DNA from: Saccharopolyspora gloriosae
GTDB taxonomy: Bacteria; Actinomycetota; Actinomycetes; Mycobacteriales; Pseudonocardiaceae
Direction: 5' to 3'
Assembly (NCBI RefSeq): GCF_022828475.1
Contig: NZ_CP059557.1
Location: forward strand, 5,007,470-5,071,469
DNA: 64,000 nt
Position 1 is the first letter of the stretch; every line of letters begins with the position of its first letter. The translations under genes and the position numbers were made by a program. Below the pieces are notes generated by a model. That model did not search any database and was not told the DNA's origin. It was given only the letters and a program-made list of their open reading frames with translations. Below are positions 3,821 to 54,105 of this stretch, piece by piece.

Positions 3821-4223
3821 TCGGCGAGGTCGGCCGACAGCACGGGAACGCGGGGTTCGGTGCCCGCTCTCGGCGCGGTGATCGGCTCGACGGCGGGCTC
3901 GCCGGTCTGCGAGTCGGCGAGGGCGATCTTTGACTCGACGGCCTGCGACTCGACGGCCTGCGACTCGACGGCCTGCGGCTCGGCGGTCTGCTCTTCGGCA
4001 GGCAGCGGCTCAGCGGTCCGCTGCTCGGCGATCAGCGGTTCAACGCCCTGCGGCTCGGGCGGTTCCGGTTCGGTGCAGTGGTGCCGGGCCGGGCTCGGGA
4101 GGGGCTCCTCCCGAGCATGCGTCTCTCGAACCAGCACAGGGCGATCAACGAGCCAATGATCGTTCCGATGCCCAGCGAAGCCATCAGAACGAAGATCGCC
4201 AACGTGTTCAGCACCGACCTCAC
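3700..4223 (-). pseudogene. Membrane protein with frameshifted acidic Pro-Glu tail
   Basis: From a GTG at 4223 the minus strand encodes a single transmembrane helix (SVLNTLAIFVLMASLGIGTI then IGSLIALCWFERR) and stops at 4032 after 63 aa. In the -1 frame, from about 4110 down to 3700, there is an acidic repeat-rich stretch (EPEPPEPQGVEPLIAEQRTA, three AVESQ units) with codon use typical of the genome. Both halves look coding, so one base shift near 4080-4120 (around the GGAGCCCCTCCCGAG stretch) would join them into one membrane-anchored protein with a low-complexity tail. The tail frame then overlaps the end of the DUF952-cupin gene by about 120 bp, which is odd. Product function is unknown. 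A sequencing error, a true frameshift or translational slippage are all possible. Confidence 0.4.
3932..3976. repeat. 15-bp tandem repeat, three units
   Basis: Three exact head-to-tail copies of GACTCGACGGCCTGC. On the minus strand, in the frame of the acidic tail described in the next entry, each unit encodes AVESQ. Such repeats are typical of low-complexity, surface or linker regions. Confidence 0.85.
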
Positions 4224-15817: not shown

Positions 15818-16076
15818 GAACACCTCCAGAAGTGTGTTTTTCACTGCCCGTCCAGCCGAATTCGGTCGGCTGCGGGCGCTGTCGGGAACATGGCCGGAAA
15901 TGCGCATATCGGCATCTCTGGCCGATCACCGACCATACCCCCCGATCGGCCGTAGCCCTCGGACGCTCGACTGCGGTTCCGTCTGTGGGACGCGCGCCAC
16001 GACAGGGCCGCTTCGACACGTTGTGTGAATCTGCGACTACTGTACGGTGTCGCCGACGAAGAACGAGGAGCACACC

Positions 16077-16889
16077 ATGGTCGACGCGCAACGCCTGTTG
16101 TCCAGGGAGATGGACATCGACCGGCCTTGCGCGGCGAGGATCTACGACGCGTTCCTCGGGGGTGGGCACAACTTCGGCGTGGAACGCGAGTTCGCCGAAC
16201 GACTGCAGACCGCGATGCCCGGTGTGGCCGGGATATTCCGGGACAGCAGGGCGTTCCTGCGCCGCTCCGTGGAGCACCTGCTGGCTCGCGGAGTGCGGCA
16301 ATTCGTGGAACTCGGCTCGGGCATCCCGACGATCGGTCACGTCCACGAGGTCGCGCTGCGCCGCACCCGGCGGTTCAGCGTGCTGTACGTGGACAACGAG
16401 CCGTTGACCGTCGCGCACAGCACGCCGCTGCTGCACGACGAGCCACGGGCGGCGATCATCCACGCCGACATCCGCGAACCGGAGGCGATCCTGCGGTCAC
16501 CGGAGGCCGCTGACCTGATCGACTTCGAGCAGCCCGTGGCGCTGCTGATGTCCGCGGTGCTGCACTTCCTCGACGACGCCGACGATCCCCTGCGGTTGGT
16601 GCGGACCTACCAGGACGCGGTGGCGCCCGGCAGCGCGCTGATGGTCTCGCACCTGACCGGCAGCGAGGAACCGGAGCCGATGAACCTGCTCACGGCGTTC
16701 TACACCGAGACGGCCGACCCGATGGTGGCTCGCCCGACGGAGTGGATCGCGGAGTGCTTCGCCGGATTCGAGCCGCAGGCCCCCGGCACCTGCTACATCG
16801 GTGATTGGCGACCGGAGCCCGATCAGCCCGCACACCGCCACCCGCGATACCGAATCATCCACGGCGGCGTCGCACGTAAGGCTCGTTGA
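16077..16889 (+). CDS. SAM-dependent methyltransferase, DUF574 family
   Basis: 270 aa, typical for the actinobacterial family PF04672 (Methyltransf_19). Signatures: DIDRPCAARIYDAFLGGGHN at the N-terminus, a SAM site FVELGSGIPTIGHVHEVALR, YVDNEPLTVAHSTPLL, and AVLHFLDDADDPLRLVRTYQ. Family members are of unknown substrate, often beside XRE regulators. ATG at 16077 has GAGGAG at 16065-16070. Divergent from mscR, and its stop is followed after a few bases by the dispersed hairpin element. Confidence 0.88.
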   Translation: MVDAQRLLSREMDIDRPCAARIYDAFLGGGHNFGVEREFAERLQTAMPGVAGIFRDSRAFLRRSVEHLLARGVRQFVELGSGIPTIGHVHEVALRRTRRFSVLYVDNEPLTVAHSTPLLHDEPRAAIIHADIREPEAILRSPEAADLIDFEQPVALLMSAVLHFLDDADDPLRLVRTYQDAVAPGSALMVSHLTGSEEPEPMNLLTAFYTETADPMVARPTEWIAECFAGFEPQAPGTCYIGDWRPEPDQPAHRHPRYRIIHGGVARKAR

Positions 16890-16896
16890 GGTTTCT

Positions 16897-17185
16897 CCGG
16901 TCGTTTGGGTTGGGTGTCCGGGTGGCGGAACCTCAGCTGTCTTCTCGCTGCGGGATCTTTTTCCCTAGTGGCTCCGCCACGAGGGAAAAAGCTGTCCTCG
17001 CGAGAAGACAGCTGAGAACCCGCGGGTGAGCGGCTTTTTGACGTGGGCTATGTGCTTCGCACATACAGGCACGGCTTCGCCGCACGGATTCGGCTTCGCC
17101 GCGAGGCACGGCCTTCGGCCGCGAGGCAGGCGGGGCTTTGCCGCCCTTTGCGGGCTTCGCCCGCCGACTGCGCGGCTTCGGCGCA
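16897..17185 (+). repeat. Covarying-stem intergenic element, copy A
   Basis: Lies between two convergent genes. It has a conserved leader (GGGTGTCCGGGTGGCGGAAC), a perfect 17-bp outer stem CTCAGCTGTCTTCTCGC (16932-16948) with its complement at 17000-17016, and an inner hairpin at 16957-16991 built of CTTTTTCCCT, GTGGC and their complements around TCC. A GCGGCTTTTTG tract follows at 17030-17040, then a TATGTGCTTCGCACATA hairpin and several short palindromes centred on TTC (GGCTTCGCC, GGCCTTCGGCC, GGGCTTCGCCC). It contains no gene: long open frames across it arise from its base composition. Confidence 0.9.
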
Positions 17186-17197
17186 AGGTGGGGAGGT

Positions 17198-25911: not shown

Positions 25912-26048
25912 CCACGCCCCGCTCACCCCCACCAAGGCAGCACGATCAGCACCAACTCCGCCCAGCCACCAGCGAACCCGCACGGTTCGGCGACGAAGCC
26001 CGCAAAGGACAGCGAGACCACCCCGCCTCCCAGCGATAGCCATCCCTT

Positions 26049-26299
26049 ACGACCGAAGGCCGCGCCGTTGGCGGCGAAGCCCGCGAAGGGCGGGCGAAGC
26101 CACGCCTGCCTTGCGGCCGAAGGCCGTGCCTGTATGTGCGAAGCACATAGCCCACGTCAAGAAAACGACCACCGGCGGGTTCTCAGTGAGCCTCTCGCGA
26201 GGACAGCTTTTTCCCTCGTGGCGGAGCCACTAGGGAAAAAGATCCCGCAGCGAGAGGCTCACTGAGGTTCCGCTACCCGGACACCCAAGCAAAACGACC
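26049..26299 (-). repeat. Covarying-stem intergenic element, copy B
   Basis: Minus-strand copy between convergent genes. The conserved leader starts directly at the stop of the 3-hydroxyacyl-CoA dehydrogenase gene (GGTCGTTTT, then GTCCGGGTAGCGGAAC). Outer stem CTCAGTGAGCCTCTCGC pairs perfectly (26250-26266 with 26182-26198); inner hairpin at 26207-26241 is identical to copy A. The TATGTGCTTCGCACATA hairpin and the TTC-centred palindromes follow toward 26049. The remaining stretch 25912-26048 has no gene or clear motif apart from diverged array-like sequence. Confidence 0.9.
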
Positions 26300-49747: not shown

Positions 49748-50078
49748 CCCGGTCGTTTTGGTGTGGGTGTCCGGGTGGCGGAACCTCAGTTGGTCTCTCG
49801 CTGCGGGATCTTTTTCCCAAGTGGCTCCGCCACGAGGGAAAAAGCTGTCCTCGCGAGAGACCAACTGAGAACCCGCTGGCGAGGGGCTTTTGGACGTGGG
49901 CTATGCGCTGACGCGCATACAAGCACGGCCTTCGGCCGCAAGGCACGGCCTTCGGCCGCAAGGCAGGCGTGGCTTCGCCCGCCCTTCGCGGACTCCGCCG
50001 CTAAAAGCACGGCTACGCCGCACGGCACGGCCTCCGGCCGCAAAGCAAGCGGGGCTTCGCCCGGGCTTCGCCGCCGAA
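49748..50078 (+). repeat. Covarying-stem intergenic element, copy C
   Basis: Between the kinase gene and the convergent lactonase gene. Outer stem CTCAGTTGGTCTCTCGC (49785-49801) pairs with 49853-49869 exactly. The inner hairpin differs from copies A/B only in AA for TA before GTGGC. The small hairpin reads TATGCGC...GCGCATA (A/B have TATGTGC...GCACATA), another compensatory change. The array starts with two copies of GCACGGCCTTCGGCCGCAAG and is less regular toward 50078. Confidence 0.9.
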
Positions 50079-50096
50079 AGTACGGGCGGCGGCGGG

Positions 50097-51136
50097 TCAG
50101 GCCGGGAGGATGCAGACCGGGGTCGGGGAGGATGCGGGGTCCGTGATCGGGGTGAGAGCGCCCGTGGTGGAGACGGCAAATGCTTGGATCGTGTCGCTGA
50201 GCTCGCCTGCCGCGTAGAGCACGTCGCCCTGTGGGGACAGCGCGATGTGCCGAGGCCCGCGCACTCCCGCGGGCACGATGTCGACGAGCTCGAAATCGCC
50301 GCCGGAGAACACCGCGATGCTGTCGTGGCCCCGGTTCGAGGCGAACACGAACCGGCCGTCCGGGGAGACCACGACCTCCGCGGCCAGGCTCGTGCCCGAG
50401 AAGTCCGCCGGGAGCAGCGACAACGTCCGGCCGGGCCGCACCACCCCGGTGTCCGCGTCGAACCCGAACTCGGTGATCGTCGACGTCAACTCCCCCACCA
50501 AGTAGCCGCGGTCACCGTCGGGGTGGAACGCCAGGTGGCGCGGCCCGGTCCCCGCCTGCCACTCGACCTCGTGCTTGAGCACCATGTGCCCGGTGTCCGC
50601 GTCGAACGCGTACACGTACACGGCGTCCGTGCCCAAGTCAGCGGCGAGCACAAAACGGCCGTCCGGGGACGGCAGGATCTGGTGCGCGTGCGGGCCCTCC
50701 TGGCGGTCCTTGGCCGGCCCCTGCCCGCTGTGCTGCACCGCGTGGCACGCCTCCCGCAGCACCCCGCCCTCACCGATCGGGTGCACCACGACGTTGCCCG
50801 ACAAGTAGTTGGCGGTCAGCAGGAACCGGCCGGAGGGGTGCACGCTCAGATGGCACGGCGCCGAACCGTGCGTCGGCTGCGAGTTGATCTCCACGAGCCT
50901 GCCGTCCGGGCGCACCTCGAACGCCACCACCCGGCCGTGCGCGACCTCGTTCACCGCGAACAACGTCCGCCCGTCCGGAGCGAGCGCCAAGAACGACGGC
51001 TCGTAGGTGTCGGCGACCGTGTCGGTGCACCGCAGCAGGCCCGCCGCATCGGCGAACGCGAGGCGGATCCCGTTCGCCCCCGACTCCGGGCCGGTGTAGG
51101 CCCCACGTACACCCGAAATTGCGCGTCCTGCGGCAT
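50097..51136 (-). pseudogene. Lactonase (6-phosphogluconolactonase-type), frameshifted
   Basis: PF10282-type seven-bladed propeller protein; known relatives hydrolyse 6-phosphogluconolactone. The N-terminus MPQDAQFRVYVG begins at ATG 51136 with GGAGG upstream, but the body AYTGPESGANGIRLAFADAA is in another frame. Reading GTGGGG as GTGGGGG at 51101-51104 would restore RVYVGAYTGPESG, so one G is missing from a homopolymer run. The rest (PSFLALAPDGRTLFAVNE, HPSGRFLLTANYLSGNVVVH, GTGPRHLAFHPDGDRGYLVG) is intact to the stop, about 346 aa in total. Either the gene is broken or the base was lost in assembly. Confidence 0.7.
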
Positions 51137-52698: not shown

Positions 52699-53060
52699 CA
52701 CGGCTCGTTCTGCTCTGGTGGTCGGGTAGCGGAACCTCAGTTGCTTCCTCGCTGCGGGATCTTTTTCCCAAGTGGCTCCGCCACGAGGGAAAAAGCTGTC
52801 CTCGCGAGGAAGCAACTGAGAACCCGCCGGTGGTCGGCTTCTCGACGTGGGCTATGCGCTTCGCGCATCCAAGCACGGCTACGCCGCCAAACACGGCCTT
52901 CAGCCGCAAAACAAGCGGAGCTTCGCCCGCCAACTACACGGCTACGCCGCCAAACACGGCCATCGGCCGCAAAACAAGCGGAGCTTCGCCCGCCAACTAC
53001 ACGGCTACGCCGCCAAACACGGCCTTCAGCCGCAAAGCAAGCGGGGCTTCGTGCGCCCTT
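52699..53060 (+). repeat. Covarying-stem intergenic element, copy D
   Basis: Between rocD and the convergent zapE. Outer stem CTCAGTTGCTTCCTCGC (52736-52752) pairs with 52804-52820 exactly; the inner hairpin is the same as in copy C. Small hairpin ATGCGCTTCGCGCAT follows. The array is replaced by a 63-bp tandem repeat, nearly three units (52875, 52938, 53001), each holding GGCTACGCCGCC, a palindrome CGGCCTTCAGCCG or its variant, and GGAGCTTCGCCCG. Confidence 0.9.
52875..53060 (+). repeat. 63-bp tandem repeat inside copy D
   Basis: Units start at 52875, 52938 and 53001 and differ at few positions (CTTCAG versus CATCGG in the middle unit, and GGGGC for GGAGC in the third). The period is a multiple of three but no coding gene is supported. 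It is a local expansion of the palindrome module of the element. Confidence 0.9.
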
Positions 53061-53079
53061 TGCCGGAGGTCTGCTCGGG

Positions 53080-54105
53080 TCAGGACTTGACGGTGTCGCG
53101 GGAAAGGGCGGTGAGGCGGCTCAGGGCTCGCAGGTACTTCTTTCGGTAGCCGCCACGGAGCATTTCCTCGGTGAACAGCGACGACAGGGGTTCGCCGGAC
53201 ACTCGGACCGGGACCGCGCGGTCGTAGAGGCGGTCCGCGAAGGCCACCAGGCGCAGGCCGACGGTCTGGTTCGGCGCCGCGTGCAGGCCGCGCAGGTGCA
53301 CGGCCGCCACATCGTCCACGAGCTTCCCGTACTTCGACGGGTGCACTCCGGCCAGGTGATCGCACAACGCGTCGAAATCGTCGAGCGTCGCCCCGGGCAG
53401 CGAGTCGGCTTCGGCGGTGAGTTCCGCGTCGTCCACCGACTCCGGCGGATCTGGCAGGCCCCGGTGCCGGTAGTCCGGCCCGTCGACGCGCAGCACCTCG
53501 AAGCGCTCGGACATCGCGTGGATCTCGCGCAGGAAGTCCACCGCCGCGAACCGGCCCTCGCCGAGCTTGCCGGGCAACGTGTTCGAGGTGGCGGCGATGT
53601 GCACGCCCGCCTCGGTGAGCTTCGCGATCAGCTGGGTGACCAGCATCGTGTCGCCCGGGTCGTCCAGTTCGAACTCGTCGATCGCCAGCAGCCGGTGCTC
53701 GGAGAGCCGCTTCACCGTCTCGGTGAACCCGAGCGCGCCCACGAGGTTGGTGACCTCGACGAACGTGCCGTAGGACTTCGGTCCGGGAACGGCATGCCAC
53801 AACGAGGCCAGCAGGTGCGTCTTGCCGACGCCGAAACCGCCGTCCAAGTACAGGCCCTGTTTCCCGGCGGGCGCGCGACCACCGCCGAACAGCGAACGCC
53901 ACCACGAGCCGTTCTTGCCGCCCGCCCCGGCCCGGTCCGCGAACGCGCGGCAGGCCTCGACGGCGGCGGCCTGGCTCGGCTCCTCCGGGTTCGGCACGTA
54001 GGTCTCGAACCGCGCTTCGTCGAACCGCGGCGGCGGCGTCATCGCGTCGACCATGTCGGCCGGGCTCAGCTCGGGACGGCGGTCGATGAGGCGTGCGGCG
54101 GTCAT
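53080..54105 (-). CDS. zapE: Cell division protein ZapE (AFG1-like ATPase)
   Basis: 341 aa. Walker A in YLDGGFGVGKTHLLASLWHA, Walker B LLAIDEFELDDPGDTMLVTQ, sensor region TSNTLPGKLGEGRFAAVDFL and RVDGPDYRHR are typical of this AAA+-like family, which in E. coli interacts with FtsZ and in mitochondria handles inner-membrane proteins. The start overlaps nothing; it is divergent from the RibD-like gene. Confidence 0.93.
   Translation of the reverse strand: MTAARLIDRRPELSPADMVDAMTPPPRFDEARFETYVPNPEEPSQAAAVEACRAFADRAGAGGKNGSWWRSLFGGGRAPAGKQGLYLDGGFGVGKTHLLASLWHAVPGPKSYGTFVEVTNLVGALGFTETVKRLSEHRLLAIDEFELDDPGDTMLVTQLIAKLTEAGVHIAATSNTLPGKLGEGRFAAVDFLREIHAMSERFEVLRVDGPDYRHRGLPDPPESVDDAELTAEADSLPGATLDDFDALCDHLAGVHPSKYGKLVDDVAAVHLRGLHAAPNQTVGLRLVAFADRLYDRAVPVRVSGEPLSSLFTEEMLRGGYRKKYLRALSRLTALSRDTVKS

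Follow-up and report, generated by a model that had tools for sequence, protein, structure and literature searches.

A dispersed hairpin repeat with a covarying 7-bp helix in the Pseudonocardiaceae

We describe here a structured repeat of about 150–190 bp that, in the searches made, occurs only in the Pseudonocardiaceae. It is best read as a structure-selected, dispersed and concertedly evolving repeat that multiplied and that behaves like REPIN or ERIC sequences. The explanation that we prefer as a whole, to which we give roughly an even chance, is a structure-selected Pseudonocardiaceae repeat that would work as a folded, single-stranded molecule, most probably an RNA at the 3′ borders of transcription units.

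Structure of the Element

The window, i.e., the whole stretch of 64,000 nucleotides that was analyzed, contains four copies. The hairpin of copy 1 lies at 16925–17023 on the plus strand of the window (arms 16932–16948 and 17000–17016, core CTGTCTT), that of copy 2 at 26175–26273 on its minus strand (arms 26182–26198 and 26250–26266, core TGAGCCT), and those of copies 3 and 4 on the plus strand at 49778–49876 (arms 49785–49801 and 49853–49869, core TTGGTCT) and 52729–52827 (arms 52736–52752 and 52804–52820, core TTGCTTC), respectively. Reading the window confirmed the positions and 7-base cores that an earlier note had given for these copies, the perfect pairing of all four stems over 17 bp and the near-identity of the sequence between the arms, in which a single loop base varies (T, T, A, A). 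The 5′ pattern with seven free bases occurs four times in the window and 0 times in 100 dinucleotide shuffles. The covariance-model check proposed in the same note recovered the four copies in the window and nothing else below E 0.07, and this model, built on the complement strand, scored them at 123–126 bits on the complement and 46–48 bits on the opposite strand.

Conservation extends from about 30 nt ahead of the hairpin to about 45–55 nt beyond it, and in many copies an array of small hairpins then follows. The conserved 5′ flank of copy 1 (16899–16924, plus strand, bounds approximate) begins about 10 nt past the stop codon of the gene at 16047–16889, and its 3′ flank with the small-hairpin array spans 17024–17190 on the plus strand (right end set by eye). 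The corresponding 3′ flanks and arrays are located at 26025–26174 on the minus strand for copy 2 (end by eye), at 49877–50096 on the plus strand for copy 3, reaching a convergent gene at 50097, and at 52828–53065 on the plus strand for copy 4 (end by eye). A 100-aa open reading frame called at 52847–53149, within the array of copy 4, is probably spurious. Elsewhere in the window, positions 3932–3991 hold a tandem repeat of about four 15-bp units, the last of which is imperfect.

When applied to the element, "minus" denotes hereafter the complement of the orientation in which the finding was first described. The order on this strand is GCGGGTTCTCAG, seven free bases, CTCGCGAGGACAGC, a variable tip hairpin and then the 3′ half, which comprises GATCCCGCAGCGAG, the seven partner bases and CTGAGGTTCCGC. 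The minus strand can form a long hairpin that begins with an outer helix of fixed sequence, continues with a sequence-free and mostly paired 7-bp helix and ends, past another fixed helix and an internal loop that is asymmetric, in the variable tip. The tetranucleotide at the hairpin foot is GTAG in 102 and GTGG in 135 of 295 copies. Many copies show TTGC/CTGC and GGTG motifs both before and after the hairpin, which gives the impression of a short direct repeat flanking it. In the small-hairpin arrays of 57 regions of the own genome, 153 of 228 hairpins with a stem of 5 or more have 3-base loops, and 107 of these 153 triloops read GNA on the minus strand (C-GNA-G), an excess that is weak support because the array units share descent.

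Distribution and Copy Number

Further copies, which the earlier note had suggested looking for in this genome and its relatives, were found in both. The pattern at up to three mismatches identified 262 copies in the own genome (G000; 6.88 Mb, one contig), 130 and 132 on the two strands, while the reversed control gave 0. Genomes of the own genus Saccharopolyspora, a member of the Pseudonocardiaceae, carry 30–342 copies each, and the number overall ranges from 1 (covariance model) to 342 (pattern). The pattern matched five of five congeners, seven of 30 family genomes of other genera and none of 24 genomes from other families of the order. With the covariance model, matches were obtained in 57 of 200 family genomes (13 of 44 genera), in 24 of 298 order genomes, all 24 of them Pseudonocardiaceae, and in one of 396 phylum genomes, which is the own genome; the three samples overlap and include the own genome. 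Exact pattern matches in named records come from Saccharopolyspora species, Halopolyspora, Halosaccharopolyspora and Actinopolyspora. The genomes compared further below include NFXS83 (G002), which shares the genus of the own genome, HNM0986 (G004) and Halosaccharopolyspora lacisalsi (G010).

Among the partial matches listed, seven were five-prime-only and 14 three-prime-only, and by eye these resemble diverged copies. The region from about 1.6 to 3.65 Mb of the own genome seems element-poor, with 11 of about 100 exact matches among those listed (to 4.95 Mb). In NFXS83, L160:6975–7339 holds two oppositely oriented copies about 330 bp apart. Carriage by plasmids or phages was rejected, as blastn of copy 1 against a plasmid collection and a phage collection gave no match in either.

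Position Relative to Genes

The element lies mostly after stop codons, between convergent genes or in tandem arrangements, and rarely in divergent gaps. Of 107 own-genome copies placed against genes called by a crude ORF filter, four fell within ORF calls; 75 of the remaining 103 lie behind a gene of the same sense, and in 59 of these the hairpin is ≤60 nt from the stop codon. Convergent gaps contain 40 copies versus seven in divergent gaps (p 1e-6), and tandem gaps contain 35 sense and 21 antisense copies (p 0.08).

The preferred mechanism would give the folded strand a role at the 3′ borders of transcription units, as a terminator or 3′-end element. A different account of the same positions is that the repeat is a non-autonomous mobile hairpin, copied as folded minus-strand single-stranded DNA by some nuclease or recombinase, which we consider possible but rather unlikely. 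The post-stop sites would then be those where insertion is tolerated or targeted, and pairing would be selected only because unfolded copies cannot be copied.

Arm Pairing and Covariation

Covariation of the element is real yet imperfect, and dispersed copies decay. In 80 chosen copies (78 distinct), 97.6% of 2488 cells in 32 pairs are paired, and both sides have changed in 18 of the 32 pairs, compared with 10.9 in shuffles and 7–13 in slid controls. The covariation score is 0.364, versus 0.104 when shuffled (0 of 500) and 0.049–0.097 when slid, where the structure is the alignment's own consensus and is thereby favored over its slid versions and the shuffles ignore relatedness. Covariation is seen in the 7-bp helix as well as in the tip helix. 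The co-change of the two halves suggests that the fold itself is preserved, and the textbook covariation of a selected hairpin proposed in the earlier note is supported by these figures together with the compensated changes in the copy behind gatB (see below).

The same core is present on both arms in 78 of 111 copies of the own genome, 41 of 56 of G001 and 58 of 86 of NFXS83, where arm shuffling leads to expectations of 11.5, 4.7 and 13.8. The statement that all stems are perfectly paired thus holds for the four window copies and fails for the family: at least one core mismatch occurs in 33 of the 111 own-genome copies, four arm chimeras among them, and unpaired cores, named beforehand as an observation against the covariation, are to this extent present. 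Arm chimeras of two common classes were found in 4 of 111 copies of the own genome, 0 of 56 of G001 and 5 of 86 of NFXS83 (a draft assembly). In the own genome, pairing is retained by 62 of 72 copies whose body is intact and by 4 of 18 whose body carries at least three changes. That intact copies are mostly paired and older ones decayed is also consistent with a mobile hairpin.

Strand Preference and Folding

Core mismatches in 295 copies, as read, comprise 81 A.C, 33 G.T and 42 others (A.C vs. G.T, p 8e-6); these copies are not independent, and 93 distinct arm pairs give 72 A.C vs. 29 G.T. The ratio is 30 vs. 1 in HNM0986, G005 and the other genera taken together, while the bias is weak in three high-copy genomes (46 vs. 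30). Because A.C corresponds to G.U on the opposite strand, the minus strand is probably the one that has been kept foldable. Likewise, AAC stands opposite AAC in 79 of 80 copies, which on the minus strand becomes G.U, U.U and U.G, and an A.C within the core is present in 10 of 15 copies of other genera. Fold z-scores for one copy are −4.9 for minus RNA, −5.1 for minus DNA and −3.6 for plus RNA, and the similarity of the two minus values means that fold energies cannot separate RNA from single-stranded DNA. A mobile hairpin would also agree with the significant DNA fold and with the C-GNA-G form of the small hairpins on that strand (107 of 153 triloops).

These mismatches also bear on the second process that the earlier note had offered, hairpin-templated correction, in which a mutation or short recombination patch is copied from arm to arm during replication and the arms stay complementary without selection on the fold. 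Copies that differ in the cores of both arms can have identical interiors, as this process would produce, and the arm chimeras (4/111, 0/56 and, in the draft assembly, 5/86) could be its intermediates. However, AAC opposite AAC is left uncorrected in 79 of 80 copies and, in other genera, an A.C within the core remains in 10 of 15 copies, so that non-Watson–Crick positions persist beside changing pairs; copying does not predict that the mismatches favor one strand's wobble; and pairing is lost in copies with more body changes. We therefore regard templated correction as most improbable.

Turnover of Sites and Core Classes

At sites shared between Saccharopolyspora species, the core differs and the body is kept. 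A 400-kb syntenic block between the own genome and G001, with aligned pieces 87–94% identical, contains 15 copies in the former and 17 in the latter. The mapped G001 interval has an element for nine of the 15, none for five and is missing for one (unmapped); six of the 17 G001 copies have no element in the own genome, and one is unmapped. None of the eight same-orientation pairs aligned, three of which have poorly aligned flanks, carries the same core on both arms, and one shares the 3′ arm; one opposite-orientation pair and one loosely mapped pair were left out of this alignment. The site of copy 2 is occupied in four species, with the cores TGAGCCT, CTGTCTT, a chimera and CGGGATT, and has no element in HNM0986 and G005. 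At the site of copy 1 the element is absent in G001, NFXS83 and G003, and it was therefore probably gained there. The existence of such sites without the element in relatives, and a copy number that ranges from 1 (model) to 342 (pattern), are in line with a mobile hairpin.

The commonest core classes differ among the own genome, G001 and NFXS83, although some are common to them. Across six classes (65 copies), the core is linked to the body, with many sites above all shuffles, and mean interior differences are 3.7 within and 7.8 between classes (72 copies). This pattern could arise if the element were a functionless REP/ERIC-type repeat, in which amplification started from a small number of sources with differing stems, the covariation reflects these ancestral sources and no selection acts on the fold at dispersed sites. 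The discrete core classes common to many copies, the neutral-looking decay and the correlation of body with core over all classes (3.7 vs. 7.8; six-class linkage) agree with it. In the three youngest classes (43 copies), by contrast, the arms are fully linked to each other while the core shows next to no linkage to the interior: a three-state tip base, the single polymorphic position between the arms, is unlinked, and sites outside the arms have no or a weak link, strongest in the 3′ flank. This decoupling of core and body is claimed for the youngest classes only. As compensated changes are, in addition, observed in genomes with a single match, we consider a functionless repeat unlikely.

Sites far apart are mostly unlinked too, so that copies look like mosaics, an exception being the arms, which are linked. 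Own-genome copies of four classes, G001 copies of seven and NFXS83 copies of three have one and the same 61-base interior. Pairs of different class share their interior in 244 of 2577 cases in the own genome, 135 of 754 in G001 and 16 of 1293 in NFXS83, and pairs of the same class in 86 of 426, 13 of 66 and 7 of 360, respectively. Local conversion between neighbors was rejected: neighboring copies have the same core class in 5 of 101 cases vs. 9.8 when shuffled, and core classes therefore do not cluster among neighbors.

Of all observations, the one with the poorest explanation is that both arms change jointly while the interior stays as it was. One reading, which we hold to be very unlikely, is that the paired 7-bp helix is an exchangeable unit, the classes of the youngest copies passing as a matched pair without dragging along the 61-base interior. 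If true, the folded hairpin would be what undergoes exchange, and a recombinase acting on a single-stranded stem, with the 7 bp as the crossover region and the fixed helices as binding arms, could, for example, carry it out.

The Copy Behind gatB

In genus g56, the covariance model identified one copy each in G122, G095, G141 and G062 and two to four in three other genomes. The element lies directly behind gatB in five of these seven genomes and is the only match in three (L421, L422 and L423); it was placed by sequence in G122, G095 and G141 and by position in G172 and G186, with GatB named by NCBIfam. The own genome has no element behind gatB. Across G122, G095 and G141 the element is 95.5, 86.7 and 84.7% identical, compared with 80.6, 76.0 and 77.3% at fourfold sites of gatB in the same three comparisons, and the 150 bp beyond it align no better than shuffled DNA. 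The differences include two, four and six compensated pairs, and where G141 is compared, paired columns also hold four changes on one side only.

G122, G095 and G141 yielded no donor copy, so that the gatB element looks like change in place. Its evolution appears to be change in place under constraint, although copies may have been replaced by transfer from another strain. Mobility by itself would not lead one to expect such constraint on a sole copy, which argues against the mobile hairpin. The favored minus strand is antisense to gatB, and a simple 3′-UTR role therefore does not fit here; fold z-scores of the gatB copy are −2.0 on the plus and −2.4 on the minus strand.

Search for a Mobilizer and Comparison With Known Systems

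Genomes were searched for Y1 transposases (PF01797) and reverse transcriptases (PF00078). The search comprised 19 genomes, 12 of them element-bearing, with G030 and the later-found genera left out. Y1 transposase was undetected in eight of the 12, the two densest included (0 matches in G000, G001, G002, G003, G018, G019, G031 and G035), and PF01797 is present in G004, G005, G010 and G017. Matches to PF00078 among the 19 genomes are confined to G002, G009 and G017, so that reverse transcriptase was undetected in 10 of the 12 element-bearing genomes, again with the two densest. Retrocopying by a resident reverse transcriptase was thus rejected for G000 and G001 (0 matches). With regard to these two families, the results speak against a mobile hairpin. 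Terminal inverted repeats and a target-site duplication, which would mark a MITE of a DD(E/D) transposon, were not seen by eye, in copies whose spacers are too diverged to judge duplications or fix the right end.

The R boxes of integron attC sites, GTTRRRY and RYYYAAC, pair with each other. The element does not fit this motif, as its arms carry AAC opposite AAC rather than the pairing GTT/AAC. A known Rfam RNA, a match to which the earlier note had named as evidence against its reading, was likewise not found: no family reached the gathering score in the window, and a lax search of copy 1 gave six matches, all below that score.

REPINs are doublets of REP sequences that form hairpins and are linked to RAYT transposases. 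As high-copy intergenic hairpins able to fold, REPs and REPINs are matched by the element. It differs from REPINs in several ways: two fixed helices enclose its variable helix, G000, G001, G002 and G003 have no detected Y1 transposase, only 102 of 295 copies bear the GTAG tag, and a conserved single-copy locus exists. Membership in the RAYT/REPIN system was rejected on the eight element-bearing genomes in which no Y1 was detected and on this frequency of the GTAG foot. One REPIN study describes compensatory changes within the hairpin as common (PMC3116915), and dispersed intergenic hairpins with conserved outer blocks, as in the element, are a further likeness. GTAG- and CGTC-tagged palindromic repeats are, like the element, short dispersed palindromes, and the CGTC type is described without a dedicated transposase in PMC3733652, the main text of which does not contain the words Saccharopolyspora, actinobacter- or Streptomyces. 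These repeats measure 20–40 bp, whereas the element measures 150–190 bp and has several fixed internal blocks.

ERIC sequences, which we take to be the enterobacterial intergenic repeat units of 103–168 bp, differ from the element in sequence and hosts, and we know of no description of paired core classes for them. Such units of 103–168 bp occur in multiple intergenic regions and have been compared with MITEs, according to PMC2759123, and on that description the element is likewise a multi-copy intergenic repeat. No described family for the element was found in the accessible text of the open-access literature (including PMC3827479, PMC3733652, PMC3116915 and PMC12306157).

Implications

In the explanation that we prefer, the pairing of the element would be under selection, a host factor may make contact with the fixed helices, and the 7-bp helix may be a spacer for which length and a duplex form are what counts. 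Copies would overwrite one another, i.e., evolve in concert. The antisense orientation at gatB, the four one-sided changes of G141 at this locus, the folding of the plus strand as well, the decay of dispersed copies, the weak strand bias in high-copy genomes and the 42 core mismatches that are neither A.C nor G.T weigh against this explanation.

For dispersed palindromes in bacteria, the usual explanation is a resident Y1 transposase, or else they are regarded as debris. Here, in a family with strong strand-biased covariation, the densest genomes yielded no Y1 transposase, and at the gatB locus a sole copy seems to be evolving in place under constraint. The question of what selects the hairpin of a dispersed repeat becomes directly testable, and the core classes provide a natural record of how copies rewrite each other.
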